Source: Bryobacterales bacterium (GTDB lineage: Bacteria; Acidobacteriota; Terriglobia; Bryobacterales; UBA6623). Taken from it: a DNA stretch of 64,000 bases. Positions 54,291-60,598 of this stretch are shown here, piece by piece (position 1 is the first letter of the stretch; the number at the start of each line of letters is the position of its first letter). Made by a program: the position numbers and the translations under genes. Location: positions 46,323 through 110,322 of the forward strand of contig JAPPMB010000054.1 of assembly GCA_028819255.1 (NCBI GenBank), read 5' to 3'. The notes below the pieces were generated by a model that saw only the letters and a list, made by a program, of their open reading frames with translations, did no database searches and had not been told where the DNA came from.

Positions 54291-55410
54291 ATGATCCTGG
54301 ATGAACTGAAGCGAGACTTCGAGGCAGTGCGCGGTCGCGCCTTGGTGATTCGGGGGTATCTTTGACGCCCAGAGCGGCAGGCGTCGACTTGCGGCGCTGG
54401 AAAAGCGGATTGCGGAACCGACATTCTGGAACGATTCCACACCGAGCCAGTCGATTCTGCGGGAACGCAAAACGCTGGTCCGCATCGTAGACACGGACGA
54501 ACAAATCGAACGCGCCCTCTCGGATCTGGAGGCCTATTTGGAGCTTGGGGCTGAGGGTGAGCCGGTCGAGGACGAGTGCAGGCAGGAGCTCAAGGCCCTA
54601 GCTGACCGGCTCGACCAGGTGGAGACCGAATCGTTGCTCGGTGGGGAGCATGACCGCGCGAATGCCATTGTGACGCTAAATGCCGGTGCCGGCGGCACAG
54701 AGGCCCAGGACTGGGCGCAGATGCTCCAGCGCATGTACCTTCGGTGGGCGGAGCGGCGGGGCTTCAAGCGCGAGGTCTCCGACGTGCAGCACGGAGAGGA
54801 AGCCGGGATCAAGTCGGCGTCGCTGATCCTGAAGGGCGACAGCGCCTTCGGATTGATGCGCTCCGAGATCGGAGTGCATCGTCTCGTCAGGATCTCGCCG
54901 TTCGATTCCAACGCAAGAAGGCACACCTCGTTCGCGTCGGTGTTCGTCTATCCGGAAATCGAGGACGAGATCGAGATCGACATCCGACCGGACGATCTGC
55001 GCATTGACACCTACCGCGCAAGTGGTGCTGGCGGACAGCACGTCAACATGACGGATTCCGCAGTGCGCATCACCCACCTCCCGACCAACATCGTCGTGCA
55101 GTGCCAGAACGAGCGCTCACAGCACAAGAACAAGGCCACGGCGATGCGGATGCTCCGGGCTCGCCTGTACGACTTCGAGCTCCGCAAGAAGCGCTCCGAA
55201 GCAGAGAAGGTCGAGGCAGCCAAGCTGGGCATCGATTTTGGCAGCCAGATCCGGAACTATGTTCTTGCGCCCTACCGACTGGTCAAGGATCTGCGCACGC
55301 AGCTGGAATTCGGCGACGTGGACCGTGTGCTGGACGGCGACCTGGACCGCTTTATGCATGCCTTTCTGGTCTTTGAGAAGACAGGAAGGAAAACCCCGAA
55401 GGCAGCCTGA
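54291..55410 (+). CDS. prfB: Peptide chain release factor 2, with programmed +1 frameshift
   Basis: Translation terminator for UGA and UAA, 372 residues after frameshift. ATG 54291 opens a 24-codon frame that ends with CTT TGA (54360-54365). An upstream GGGGGT and the CTT TGA C site match the E. coli prfB shift signal; moving +1 joins the main frame to 55410. Motifs are VRISPFDSNARRHTSFASV (with SPF) and the catalytic GGQ in SGAGGQHVNMTDSAVR. The long frame starting at 54538 misses the N-terminus. Confidence 0.96.
54345..54366 (+). promoter_or_regulatory. prfB programmed frameshift site
   Basis: CGGGGGTATCTTTGAC: the internal Shine-Dalgarno-like GGGGG stands three bases before CTT, and CTT TGA C is the slip site. 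The spacing is the same as in E. coli prfB, so RF2 shortage should favour the shift. Confidence 0.92.
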
Positions 55411-55533
55411 CGCCGGGTCCGGCGGCGCCGTCGGAAGCCGCGCGCGGAGCAAGTCTGTGCCTGCGGGTGAACCGGGAAGCGGCCCGGGATCGGCGAACAT
55501 CGACATCGTACAGTTCGGGTCCGCGAAACGACG
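55411..55533. other. Spacer after prfB
   Basis: No gene, promoter or clear terminator is seen in these 120 bases. Confidence 0.4.
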
Positions 55534-55881
55534 ATGAACTGTGCCACGTCTTGTGTCGCGACCGCCTTTCCATCGAGCCTATTCCCAATTGCGTTTCTGT
55601 TGTTGCCAGGTCCGAGTGCGGCGTTTGGCAACGGATCCGATGATCAGGAGGAAGACCCCGATGGCCGCATGGAGATCCGTTCCCGTCATCGAATCTCGGC
55701 TCGGGCGATGTGGCCGTTCGGACGGGGGGCAGGGGATTCCCTGACTGGCGTGCAGCCGAGTCCTGGTTGGAGTGCTGCCTGGACACTGTTCAGCTCACCG
55801 GTCCGAGTCCGCTCGGGCCTGCCGATCCGCCGTCGCGAATCGATTTCGCAGTCCCCCGCAGGTCTGCCCGCGTTCGGATGA
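55534..55881 (+). pseudogene. N-terminal fragment of the four-Cache secreted protein
   Basis: The start of this frame matches the N-terminus of the gene at 58352: a hydrophobic signal, then SAAFGNGS, DRMEIRSRHRISARA (against DRMKICSDHRVSARA). Likeness is lost after about 60 residues, and the rest of the 115-residue frame resembles nothing. So it is a truncated third copy, broken at the first Cache module. It may still be translated as a short exported peptide. Confidence 0.7.
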
Positions 55882-55932
55882 ACCGCGCGGGTCGAACGCC
55901 CTCTCGATCTCTCGCCGCCGTGACCGTTCGAA

Positions 55933-56916
55933 TCAGCCGGCGTTTCGTTCCCCGAGGTAGCCTGCGACCGCGTCCTTGCAGGACTTGGATGCCCAGTACG
56001 CGTCTTCCGTCCCCCAGCTGTCCATCTGGAACCATCCCCGGAATTCTCCCTCGTCGAGGATCGAGCAGAGCTTGGCGATGTCGTAGACGCCTTCACCGCA
56101 GGGCAGGTGCCGGGACGTGCCCGACCCTCCGCCGGGGAATGGCCGCAAGGTCGAATCGCCGTCGCAGAACTGGACATAACCGATCCTGTCCACTCCCAGA
56201 TCGAGAAGCAGGTCCTCGGGGCGGCCGCGCGCGCCGTTGAGAAGGTCGAAGTGCGACGGGTCGAAGATCGCCTTGAGCTCGTCCATGCCGGCCGCCGCAA
56301 ACAGCTTGTGGTAGCGCAGCGCCGAGTTCACGAGAAGAGGCGGCTCTCCTTCGATGGCGAGCAGGATCCCGCTGTCGACCGCATAGCGGACGGCCGGGCG
56401 CAACACGCCTGCGAACCGTTCGATCAACTGGTCTTCCCCGACCTGGTCCGGAGCTCGGCCCGCTGACCAGAGGCCCATCGCGTCGCAGCCGAACTTCGCG
56501 GCCAAGTCCACTTGTCGCTGAAGGCCGCGAGAGTATTCGGCTCGCTCCGACGCATCGTCCGAGACGGGATTCACGCCCCGAACGCCACCTTGGATCGAGA
56601 ACACCTGCAGTCCGAACGACTCGATCTTCTCTCGCGAAGCTTGAATCGCCCGGTCGTCGTCCGGATCGGGATAGCCCTCGCGCCAGCCGCGCCAAAGCTC
56701 AATCCCGTCGAACCCCTCTTCGCGGGCGAATTCCAGGATCGCGTCATAGTCGTAGCGCTTTCCGTGGTGTGTCTCGGAGGACCCGAAACCGTTGAGACCG
56801 ATTGCGAGGTGCCACGGTGAGGTCGCTGCGGTGTGCTTGTTCTCCCGTTCCCCAACACCTGCGCATCCCAAGCAGGTGAGCTGTGCAAGAAGCGTTCGGC
56901 GGCTGAGCGTGGGCAT
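55933..56916 (-). CDS. Sugar phosphate isomerase/epimerase-family protein, exported
   Basis: TIM-barrel protein of 327 residues. The N-terminus (PTLSRRTLLAQLTCLGCAG) has twin arginines and a lipobox-like LGC, so it is probably a TAT-exported lipoprotein. The metal-binding strands read LLAIEGEPPLL, KAIFDPSHFDLL and GYVQFCDGD. The C-terminal part EFRGWFQMDSWG is usual. The substrate is not known. ATG 56916 is used because GAGG lies nine bases upstream; ATG 56925 is the other option. Confidence 0.85.
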   Translation of the reverse strand: MPTLSRRTLLAQLTCLGCAGVGERENKHTAATSPWHLAIGLNGFGSSETHHGKRYDYDAILEFAREEGFDGIELWRGWREGYPDPDDDRAIQASREKIESFGLQVFSIQGGVRGVNPVSDDASERAEYSRGLQRQVDLAAKFGCDAMGLWSAGRAPDQVGEDQLIERFAGVLRPAVRYAVDSGILLAIEGEPPLLVNSALRYHKLFAAAGMDELKAIFDPSHFDLLNGARGRPEDLLLDLGVDRIGYVQFCDGDSTLRPFPGGGSGTSRHLPCGEGVYDIAKLCSILDEGEFRGWFQMDSWGTEDAYWASKSCKDAVAGYLGERNAG

Positions 56917-57028
56917 ACCAAACATCCTCGCACTCGCGACTCGCGACTTGAAATTCTCTGCCGGCGCGGACGGCGCAGGCTGTGTGCGAATTTCTGCTCG
57001 GGACGCGAGCCAACCGGTCCGGCGCCGG

Positions 57029-57370
57029 TCACGGCTGGGCGAGAGGTTCGCACCTGCCTGATCGATAGGTCACCCGAATCGGGCTGACCCAAGCCAGCGA
57101 ACCGTCCGATTGCTCAGCCCGGGCGCAGTGGTAGCTCCCGCCTCGCTCCGCCGCGTCGTCGCGGTGCTCGAAGTCGGCTTCCTTGGTGTCTGGCGCGACT
57201 GTGTGGACGACCTTGTTGTTCCGGATCAGCACGGTGCGACCGATTGGCACGGTCCCAGTTGGCAGCGTCCAGCTTCGTTGCGGGGAGCCAGCCCTCGACG
57301 TCGAGCCGTGTCAGCCGCATCTCCCGGATCCCCCCGGTTGTCATTCTCAACGACCCTTTACGCAACACCA
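57029..57370 (-). pseudogene. C-terminal fragment of a DUF3604-like protein, frameshifted
   Basis: On the minus strand one frame gives LVLRKGSLRMTTGGIREMRL and DVEGWLPATKLDAANWDRA. A shift then leads to VLIRNNKVVHTVAPDTKEAD and QSDGSLAWVSPIRVTYR, ending at 57029. The Asp-Gly-(Ser)-Leu-Ala-Trp-(Val)-Ser-Pro-Ile end is typical of the C-terminus of DUF3604/PHP-type secreted proteins. Only this tail remains and it contains a frameshift, so it is dead. Confidence 0.55.
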
Positions 57371-57469
57371 GCGTCGTCAAGCCCCTCTGCCGGGACTCGA
57401 AAGCCGTCCTCACTCGACAGCTCCCCAGCCATTCATCACGGTCCGCTCGAACGCTTCCACTCGGAGCGG

Positions 57470-58262
57470 AGTCAGAGCGGGAGCCCCGGCGGCCGCGCCG
57501 CGTTGGCCGCAGGCGCTGCATGCCCCGGAGCCCGGTTCCGCGCCCGCGGCCCGAGCTGTTTGTCGGCATCAGCGGTTCGGGTCGTATCCCGAGCCCACCA
57601 GCAAAGGCCTTCCATTGACCAGAATGCGGTCGACAAACGAGATCTTGGCCTCAGCCTCGCCAGTGGCGGGATTGGTAAAGTTGTAGTACCAGTAGCTGTA
57701 GCGGAAGGGTTCAGAGGCCTTCAGTGCGTTCCGGCCCCCGAAGAGCACCTCCGGAATCCTTCCCGACACTGCAAAGCTGCTTGGGCTGCCGCTGAACCCG
57801 ACCGCTCCCGAGACCGGATCCACACCGAACACGTAGGTCGATCGGTCCAGCCAGCGCGGATCGCTGGAGAGGACCGGTCCAGAGAAGAACCCGCCGGATT
57901 CCACTTGGATCGCAGCGCAGTGGACGAATTCCCGGAGCCTTGCGTCGCTCGGATTCTCTTCGAGGATCGTCGCGTTCACCTCGCTCGGATGGCAGGTGCC
58001 CGGGAGATCCCCACTGTAGAGCCCGGCTCCGACGACCGCGCGGTGTCCGTTCCAGTCCATTTCCCGAGCGTACGAGGCCTTCGGCTCATGCCTGCCCGTC
58101 GCGGGGTTCCGGAAGCTGTAGTTGAACCACCCCTCATCGACAACGTCCATCATCCGATAGACCTCGGCGACAAAGTCGGTCCCGAAACGGTCTACGAGCG
58201 GACCCCAGTTCGAGCCCACAAGGGATGGGTCGGGCGGGTACACGAGAACCATCGATCCGTCT
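57470..58262 (-). repeat. Inverted repeat copy of the Cache gene 3' half
   Basis: About 790 bases on the minus strand match 59577-60365 of the plus strand closely, including the ~90 bases after the stop codon. The junction on the 5' side is near 58262. Confidence 0.75.
57569..58252 (-). pseudogene. Truncated inverted copy of the four-Cache protein (second half)
   Basis: An intact frame of 227 residues that aligns with residues ~411-640 of the protein at 58352-60274. Both read FVYPPDPSLVGSxWGPL or LVYPPDPSLVGSNWGPL, later VDEGW.YYSFRNPATG and FAVSGRIPEVLFGGRN, and end LLVGSGYDP.R. The signal peptide and the first modules are missing, so it cannot be exported as it stands. It points away from the full gene. 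Reading frame conservation suggests the copy is young or still under selection. Confidence 0.75.
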
Positions 58263-58351
58263 CCGGCTTGTCAGTCCGCACCGGCAGCGTCATGGCTGAC
58301 ACGACGGCTCAGGGCCGCGAAATGAGGCCAAACCGTGTTACGTTTCATGGC

Positions 58352-60274
58352 ATGACTGCATTCCTAAAGAGCCAATTTCCAATTGTGATTCTGACGTTTG
58401 TGGGTCTGAGTGCGGCGTTTGGCAACGGGTCGAATCTTCGAGAGGAAGGATCCGAGGATCGCATGAAGATCTGTTCGGATCATCGAGTCTCGGCTCGGGC
58501 GATTCGCAACGCCGGCGACATTCAGGCGTTTGTCCGGTGCGCACACGAATTCATGCTCAAGGCCGGGCCTGATGTCGCCCGCGCTGCTTTCCACGAAGAA
58601 GGGCTCTGGAGGCATGGTCCGTACTACGTGTTCGTCGATGAAATCGCCTCGGGCGGAGACGAGTCCAGGGCGTTCGTCTATCCGCCCGACCCATCCCGGG
58701 AAGGCAGGGTTTGGGGTCGGCTGGTCGACAGCATCGGCACCGATGTGATCGCAGAGATGTCCCGAACATTGGCAGTCGTCGACGAGGGCTGGGGGTATTA
58801 CGGTTTCCGACATCCGGCGACCGGAGAGGACGAGGCGAAGGCGTCGTACTTCATCAAGACGGAATGGAAGGGCAATCCGGCCGCGATCGGAGCCGGGATC
58901 TACGCGCGCGACATGCGCGGCACTTGCGCAACCGACGATGTCACAGCCGCTGAGCTCGACTCCGCCCCAAGCCAGGACTCGCTCCGGGCGTTTGTGGAGT
59001 GCGCCGCGGAGCTGGTGGCTGCCAAGGGCTACTTCGCGATGGACGAACTGCAGACGAGTTCGCGATGGAGCCATGGGTCCACCTACGTGTTCGTCCTGGA
59101 CATGACCGGACACCAAGTGCTGAGCAGCAGCGGAGTGCGGGTCAGCGGTCGCTCGATCCATGAGTGGGGCGGTGCCGACAATCTCGTCACGAACTTCGGC
59201 GGTCGGGACCTCCTGGAGGTTGCCAACACGTTCGGCGAGGCGTTTCTGTACTACAGCGCCTACAACCCGACGAACTTTGCGGTCCAGGGGAAGGTCTCCA
59301 TGCTCAAGCGGGTTGTTGCGCACGGCGTTCCGGTCCTGGTCGGCGCGGGATACTACCTGCCTCCCGGCGGAACCAGCGCGAGGCACAGCGTCCGGTGCGC
59401 CGACAACAACATCTCGGCAAGCGCCATCCGCAATTCCCGCGACATCGAGGCCTTCGTGAACTGCGCCTACGAACTCGTCATGAGGACAGGCCCCGACGCC
59501 GCCCGCAGGGCCTTCCACGAGGATGACCGGTGGAGCGAGGGTCCCTTCTACGTGTCTGTCAGCGGGATCGCTCCGACCGGAGATGGATCGATGTCATTCG
59601 TGTACCCGCCCGACCCATCCCTTGTGGGCTCGTATTGGGGTCCGCTGGCCGACCGCTTTGGGACGGACTTACTCGCCGAGGTATATCGGATTATGGAGCT
59701 CGTCGATGAGGGGTGGGTCTACTACAGCTTCCGCAACCCCGCGACGGGCAGGGAGGAACCGAAGTCCACGTACGCCCGGGTACTGGACTGGGAAGGGCAC
59801 CGGGCGGTCATCGGAGCTGGGATCTACAGCCGAGATCTCCCGGGCACCTGCCGTGCGAGCGAGGTGAACGCAGCGATGCTCGAGGAAGATCCGAGTGACG
59901 CAAGGCTGCGGGAATTCGTCCGCTGCGCCGCGATTCAGGCGGAATCCAGCGGGTTCTTCGCCGGGCCAGTGCTCTCCAGCGGTCCGCGCTGGCTGGACGG
60001 ATCGACGTACGTTTTCGGTGTGGATCCGGTCTCGGGAGCGGTGGAGTTCAGCGGCAGCCCAAGCAGCTTTGCAGTGTCGGGAAGGATTCCGGAGGTGCTT
60101 TTCGGGGGCCGGAATGTACTGAAGGCGGCTATGCCTTTCGGCAACTCCTACTGGTACTACAACTTTGCCGATCCCGCCACCGGCGAGGCTGAGGCCAAGA
60201 TCTCGTTCGTCGTCCGCATTCTGATCAATGGGAAGCCTTTGCTGGTGGGCTCGGGATACGACCCGCACCGCTAA
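58352..60274 (+). CDS. Secreted protein of four Cache-like modules
   Basis: Exported protein of 640 residues. The signal (SQFPIVILTFVGLSAAFG) is followed by four modules in two pairs: A1 ~41-192, B1 ~205-337, A2 ~349-501, B2 ~515-638. A1 and A2 share FHED/FHEE, VYPPDPS, VDEGWxYYxFRxPATG and AIGAGIYxRD, and three cysteines at equal places (41/63/192 and 349/371/500). B1 and B2 share LRAFVECAAE/LREFVRCAAI and (S)TYVFxxD. The aromatic and GAGxY features fit small extracytoplasmic Cache sensor domains. No transmembrane anchor or output domain is present, unlike known Cache receptors. The start ATG 58352 is favoured over ATG 58322. Confidence 0.8.
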   Translation: MTAFLKSQFPIVILTFVGLSAAFGNGSNLREEGSEDRMKICSDHRVSARAIRNAGDIQAFVRCAHEFMLKAGPDVARAAFHEEGLWRHGPYYVFVDEIASGGDESRAFVYPPDPSREGRVWGRLVDSIGTDVIAEMSRTLAVVDEGWGYYGFRHPATGEDEAKASYFIKTEWKGNPAAIGAGIYARDMRGTCATDDVTAAELDSAPSQDSLRAFVECAAELVAAKGYFAMDELQTSSRWSHGSTYVFVLDMTGHQVLSSSGVRVSGRSIHEWGGADNLVTNFGGRDLLEVANTFGEAFLYYSAYNPTNFAVQGKVSMLKRVVAHGVPVLVGAGYYLPPGGTSARHSVRCADNNISASAIRNSRDIEAFVNCAYELVMRTGPDAARRAFHEDDRWSEGPFYVSVSGIAPTGDGSMSFVYPPDPSLVGSYWGPLADRFGTDLLAEVYRIMELVDEGWVYYSFRNPATGREEPKSTYARVLDWEGHRAVIGAGIYSRDLPGTCRASEVNAAMLEEDPSDARLREFVRCAAIQAESSGFFAGPVLSSGPRWLDGSTYVFGVDPVSGAVEFSGSPSSFAVSGRIPEVLFGGRNVLKAAMPFGNSYWYYNFADPATGEAEAKISFVVRILINGKPLLVGSGYDPHR

Positions 60275-60276
60275 TG

Positions 60277-60292
60277 CCGAGAAACATCTCGG
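60277..60292 (+). terminator. Hairpin directly after the Cache gene
   Basis: CCGAGA-AACA-TCTCGG is a perfect 6-bp stem with four-base loop, two bases after the TAA stop. There is no run of T after it, so termination would have to be Rho-dependent or weak. The inverted copy has a damaged version. Confidence 0.35.
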
Positions 60293-60598
60293 GCCGCTGG
60301 TGCGGATCGGCCTCTGGGGCATGCAGCACCAATGGGGAACGGGACGCGACCGCGGGGACTCCTGCGCCGACTCCTGCGAGAGCGTGTTTGAGTCTTGATG
60401 ATCCGTGTGGCGTGCGGAGGCGGAGCCGTGGCCGGTGCCCCCGGCCTCCGGGACTCCGGCACACGGCAGGAACCATCCTCTGACGCGCGCATTCGCGGGC
60501 ACATCCGGCCCGTCCCCGCATGTTCGGCCCGGGCTTGTCGGTTGGTTTCGCGGGCCGGGGAGCTTGCCTTTCTTGCGCTGTGCGCATCTAATGTACTC

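Follow-up and report, generated by a model that had tools for sequence, protein, structure and literature searches.

The gene P0001, which lies in a window of 64,000 nucleotides (the whole stretch of DNA analysed), encodes a protein of four sCache_2 modules, and agreement between Pfam, AlphaFold and Foldseek confirms that these modules have the Cache fold. As judged by hydropathy the protein is exported and soluble, and it has neither anchor nor output domain. The best explanation of its function, to which we give about an even chance of being right, is that it is a soluble periplasmic or secreted polyvalent binder of small ligands working like a solute-binding protein. Two duplicated A-B pairs of modules would then form one exported polyvalent binder; every module has the Cache fold with an acid-binding Tyr/Tyr/Lys set and, probably, a disulfide. 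P0001 would concentrate or carry ligands for uptake, presumably with a membrane partner, rather than supply a receptor with its input. This explanation is drawn from the conserved pockets, the lack of output and anchor, the lack of chemoreceptors and the repeated fusion of the A-B pair to solute-binding proteins (SBPs). More tentatively, Cache sensor modules may have given rise, in an acidobacterial lineage, to a large soluble ligand-collecting family in which A-B pairs stand alone or front ABC solute-binding proteins, the genome itself lacking chemoreceptors. Cache would then be a transport-type or scavenging binding fold as well as a sensor input.

Table. Positions of P0001, its modules, the neighbouring remnants (all in window coordinates) and domain fusions in related copies (locus:position)
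Feature	Position	Strand	Basis or detail
Gene P0001, exported four-Cache protein	58352-60274	+	640-aa ORF, Pfam, paralogue matches
Probable Sec signal peptide, about residues 1-23, MTAFLKSQFPIVILTFVGLSAAF, no lipobox Cys	58352-58420	+	Sequence and hydropathy
Module A1, sCache_2-like	58466-58918	+	Cys41-Cys63; pocket equivalents Tyr92, Tyr150, Lys163
Module B1, sCache_2-like	58919-59365	+	Cys192-Cys217; pocket equivalents Tyr245, Tyr301, Lys314
Module A2	59390-59842	+	Cys349-Cys371
Module B2	59843-60271	+	Cys500-Cys525; last strand, then protein end
Inverted truncated paralogue (ORF 57569-58252): A2 end and B2, no signal peptide	57537-58266	-	87% nucleotide identity to 59577-60306
Paralogue 5'-end remnant: upstream region, signal peptide, first ~25 mature residues	55510-55709	+	73% identical to 58304-58503
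Cache-SBP_bac_5 fusions	L024:3444-7040, L025:7776-11543, L067:6527-10150, L102:3427-6048, L105:3539-6418, L108:3037-5805
Two Cache modules with C-terminal SBP_bac_3-like domain	L063:4772-6802, L107:4176-6140, L116:5630-7663
C-terminal DUF192 fusion	L071:3985-5364
Two N-terminal FN3 (fibronectin III) domains	L110:4455-6458, L111:6852-8732
N-terminal domain common to both, without assignment	L109:4036-5820, L061:3-1229

Pfam matches P0001 to sCache_2 (PF17200) in three stretches, with E=3.6e-15 and 56.7 bits against a curated cut-off of 25, and to dCache_2 (PF08269, E=7.6e-14), one match of which covers A1-B1 (residues 88-321). NCBIfam gives a single match, the MctS histidine kinase in its sensor region (1.8e-9). 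Searched with a profile built on the A-B pair, solved structures give the Cache domains 4K08 (4.8e-9) and 5G4Y (7e-5), both from chemoreceptors and of the carboxylate-binding type. An AlphaFold model of the A1-B1 pair, built from seven sequences, has a pLDDT of 77.7 and comprises two Cache modules, each with a long N-terminal helix of its own and a PAS-like sheet, and Foldseek matches it to the solved single Cache domains 4EXO (TMt 0.72, rmsd 2.4 Å), 5G4Y (0.68) and 4K08 (0.64), with PAS-fold proteins also among the matches. HMMs made from the two halves of the protein give the module order A-B-A-B. The sequence-only reading had described just such an arrangement, with regular cysteines behind a signal peptide; profile searches, pair model, half-HMMs and cysteine positions uphold it. 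Structure prediction, which that reading had suggested for all four modules, succeeded for the pair, but the full-length model (three sequences) was poor, with a pLDDT of 54, and was left out of the reading of the fold.

After the signal peptide the highest Kyte-Doolittle value in any 19-residue window is 1.27, so that a search for a membrane anchor by hydropathy finds no later segment, and the stop codon comes 4 residues past the last Cache strand. Pfam detects in P0001 neither an output domain (MCP, HK, GGDEF/EAL, cyclase or phosphatase) nor an SBP_bac domain, and the earlier statement that the protein ends without anchor or output stands. Its relatives are alike: a hydrophobic segment lies just ahead of the first module in 59 of the 63 scored, and in none of these 63 does the post-signal hydropathy mean exceed 1.73. 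The eight cysteines of P0001, spaced 22/25/22/25, have counterparts throughout the family: 106 of its 108 A modules show the spacing of 22, and 103 of its 112 B modules that of 25. Each module probably has one disulfide, which would link its first helix to the N-terminal segment and would fit export. That cysteine-bearing, exported modules serve instead in periplasmic redox or metal handling, as proposed for the stand-alone sCache_heme proteins, whose domains have redox-type properties (PMC12889525), is very unlikely, even with a DUF192 domain on one paralogue, as the cysteines come as one pair per module at spacings expected of disulfides. A search of the P0001 sequence for the heme-c motif CXXCH found none, and a heme reading was rejected on that ground.

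The pocket bears on what might be bound. In PscD, propionate is contacted by Tyr90, His103, Tyr143 and Lys156 and sandwiched between Trp92 and Trp145 (PMC5062169). The PscD/McpP pocket set compared here was Tyr90, Trp92, His103, Phe126, Tyr143, Trp145 and Lys156, of which all but Phe126 were mapped; equivalents were taken from profile alignments to solved domains, and those in B modules were mapped by eye from the repeated motif. The counterparts of Tyr90, Tyr143 and Lys156 (residues in the table, in that order) are present in 106, 102 and 106 of the 108 A modules and in 103, 105 and 106 of the 112 B modules, conservation above 90% in family modules. A modules have Tyr or Phe at the His103 position and mostly Phe at the positions of Trp92 and Trp145. 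With the acid-binding set kept and the pocket walls changed, a carboxylate-like ligand is likely, and the ligands are probably small carboxylates or similar metabolites; replacement of His103 and both tryptophans may give the family pocket a different specificity. The conserved Tyr and Lys residues could be partly structural.

The source genome (6.7 Mb, 98% complete) has about ten paralogues, P0001 among them; the 14 family matches there are P0001 itself, the two remnants beside it and some nine other loci, with paralogues 48-55% identical to P0001 over ~600 aa. Each of the 10 other genomes in the genus has 9-18 matches, and 3 of 7 other genomes of the taxonomic family have 11-26; the protein family is shared with congeners and some sister genera, and related genomes are where the sequence-only reading had proposed to look for the layout. 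Elsewhere in the order a match is found in 1 of 43 other genomes, and that one is a different, generic four-sCache_2 protein. In the phylum sample, a distant genus of another class (f23/g110; G223, G249, G495 and G519) has six matches in each of four genomes (L084, L085, L100-L103 among the loci). These are two-module members with 48-54% identity, and in a tree they nest beside genus g6. Transfer between classes is the likely, though not proven, explanation; horizontal transfer or a shared niche are both possible. This genome-wide family and the local remnants go beyond what had been noticed earlier.

The unit of the family is the A-B pair, found in two-module (about 330 aa), four-module and six-module forms. 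In one genome, G014, two-module Cache genes stand in tandem at two places, about five at each: C1:295875-300828 and C1:3210737-3215833 (L062, L063). In a tree of A-B units the first and second units of four-module proteins fall largely into separate groups, though not every branch is well supported and the second units are split between two groups; the pattern is consistent with one A-B duplication that predates diversification of the genus.

The pair is also a mobile building block. In paralogues, not in P0001, it is joined to several other domains. One is SBP_bac_5 (oligopeptide-type), C-terminal to the modules in L024, L025, L102 and L105 (E 6e-59, 5e-54, 1e-60 and 1.5e-55) and, by sequence, in L067, L108 and L117. 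These fusions carry two or four Cache modules; they are found in more than one genus and also in another class of acidobacteria. The SBP_bac_3-like matches in L063, L107 and L116 have E-values between 5e-5 and 5e-7 and in two cases fall short of the Pfam curated cut-off. This SBP_bac_3-like domain has a long insertion, a profile of about 120 positions being spread over about 275 residues. An SBP domain was also sought 3' of C171 (L059), the unfused paralogue nearest to the SBP_bac_5 group; none was seen, and hemB is there instead. On no family member examined is there a kinase, MCP, GGDEF, cyclase or other signalling output. The fusions suggest that the modules collect small molecules and do not signal. 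Against uptake, no permease recurs beside family genes, so no transporter can be assigned, and the neighbouring ORFs listed for the SBP fusions include no obvious permease, leaving these orphan too; the fusions to FN3 and DUF192 would also fit an extracellular function distinct from uptake.

Since Cache domains are mostly sensors, P0001 could instead be a soluble sensor subunit that, once loaded with ligand, binds to another protein in the membrane, a receptor or channel, and relays a signal. There is a precedent in Rhodopseudomonas, where a stand-alone Cache gene lies beside a gene for a pentameric ligand-gated channel and cooperation has been proposed (PMC549065). The source genome, searched for the sCache_2 and dCache_1 subfamilies, has no dCache_1, every sCache_2 match in it belongs to the P0001 family, and the MCP signalling domain is absent; there is no chemoreceptor. 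The channel ligand-binding domain was without a match in the genus, in a search whose positive control also gave none. Around six paralogues at five loci of the source genome the neighbours are unrelated and none recurs, be it kinase, cyclase or channel; they include a PhoD phosphatase, a GntP permease, a sulfatase, an outer-membrane barrel, a xanthine/uracil-type permease, an H+-pyrophosphatase, ALAD, a PSD1/PSCyt2 protein, ketopantoate reductase and a transposase. It is SBPs and not signalling parts that paralogues have acquired. A sensor subunit is rather unlikely. The earlier suggestion of a soluble ligand collector or a decoy fares unevenly: its collector half is the best-supported explanation, given the pockets, the SBP fusions and the lack of MCP and dCache_1, whereas for a decoy the one argument is solubility.

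The surroundings of P0001 differ from those in a congener. Between prfB and an Abhydrolase_10 gene there are about 690 bp in a congener (G008, L147) as against about 5 kb in the window (55410-60581), occupied by a xylose-isomerase-like gene, two paralogue remnants and P0001. The isomerase-like gene has a second copy, 87% identical, on contig C39. Because the block is absent at the congener's site it is probably a species-level insertion; a plasmid search gave no match. The inverted remnant (730 nt) retains a Pfam sCache_2 match (2.4e-8), and the 200-nt remnant is also recovered by protein search (C77:101883-102035). The two look as if they came from a single paralogue whose middle was lost when an inversion divided it. 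The span of the inversion suggested by the remnants is about 55710-58270, with the isomerase gene inside. The picture of the family's history is one of gene birth and death. With two broken pieces adjoining it, P0001 might be thought a decaying fragment of a former receptor that has lost anchor and output. This is the least credible of the alternatives: the ORF is intact, there are about ten paralogues, the signal-like segment is widespread as noted, and unfused members share the same clean C-terminal end. Comparison of P0001 with the inverted remnant gives a dN/dS of 0.34, which implies constraint, and together with the conserved architecture this low value refutes decay. The same value and the long paralogue matches also show that P0001 is no chance reading frame.

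Such turnover is also what might be seen if P0001 belonged to a family of secreted surface or host-interaction proteins whose Cache modules serve as structural or adhesive parts and diversify by birth and death. High copy number, the tandem arrays, changes in module number and the FN3 fusions would suit it, as would the species-specific insertion at the P0001 site and strong divergence, the best congener matches of P0001 being 53-55% identical compared with 63-71% for lnt. The record name of a relative, RHO3_bin_37, may hint at a sponge, as a lead only; a literature search found no paper on Bryobacterales sponge symbionts. A purely structural module, however, needs no pocket, and both pocket residues and paired cysteines are conserved, while the SBP fusions suggest ligand handling; a surface role is accordingly unlikely. 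If the ligand-binder explanation is true, collecting ligands or taking them up is within the scope of the Cache fold, and a lineage with many soluble multi-Cache proteins and SBP joins is a natural experiment on interchange between sensor and transport binding proteins.

Among the extracytoplasmic sensor domains of bacteria, Cache is described as the largest family, more than 90% of its members reportedly being fused to signalling parts (PMC12889525), and stand-alone Cache proteins are described as atypical but real (PMC12889525, PMC549065). With the sCache_2 domains of carboxylate chemoreceptors, PscD (5G4Y/5G4Z), Adeh_3718 (4K08) and VP0183 (2QHK/4EXO), P0001 has in common fold, order of elements, the Tyr/Tyr/Lys pocket equivalents and extracytoplasmic location. 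It differs from all three in lacking flanking transmembrane helices, HAMP and MCP output, and in having four tandem modules with one conserved cysteine pair each, and from PscD in the pocket replacements described above. Like dCache_2 it has a tandem of two sCache_2-derived modules, but its pairs are repeated, each module has an N-terminal helix and no receptor part follows. The sCache_heme/Tll0287 family (PMC12889525) and the Rhodopseudomonas gene (PMC549065) are likewise exported Cache proteins without output; in contrast to these, P0001 has no CXXCH, has four modules rather than one and belongs to a large lineage-specific family with SBP fusions. SBP_bac_5 and SBP_bac_3 proteins are soluble exported ligand binders, as P0001 is predicted to be, and are fused to the A-B pair in paralogues, yet their fold is different and P0001 has neither an SBP domain nor a linked permease.

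Closest in layout are generic stand-alone proteins elsewhere in the phylum (L039, L079, L104), rare in the genomes searched, which also have a signal peptide, four sCache_2 modules and no output; L039 and L104 match the generic sCache_2 profile strongly, at E about 1e-63 to 1e-70, and are 23-25% identical to P0001. Secreted two-module proteins are found as well (L094, L095). Another acidobacterial family, f26, has secreted single sCache_2 proteins of about 160 aa without output (L088, L092, L097, L099). With secreted proteins of one, two and four sCache_2 modules elsewhere in the phylum, the four-Cache layout alone is not new, being rare rather than unique. The earlier claim that no system of this kind had been described therefore needs narrowing: stand-alone Cache proteins were already known, while the literature searched contained neither multi-Cache soluble bacterial proteins nor Cache-SBP fusions. 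What is new is the amplified, cysteine-bearing A-B family together with its fusions to binding proteins.
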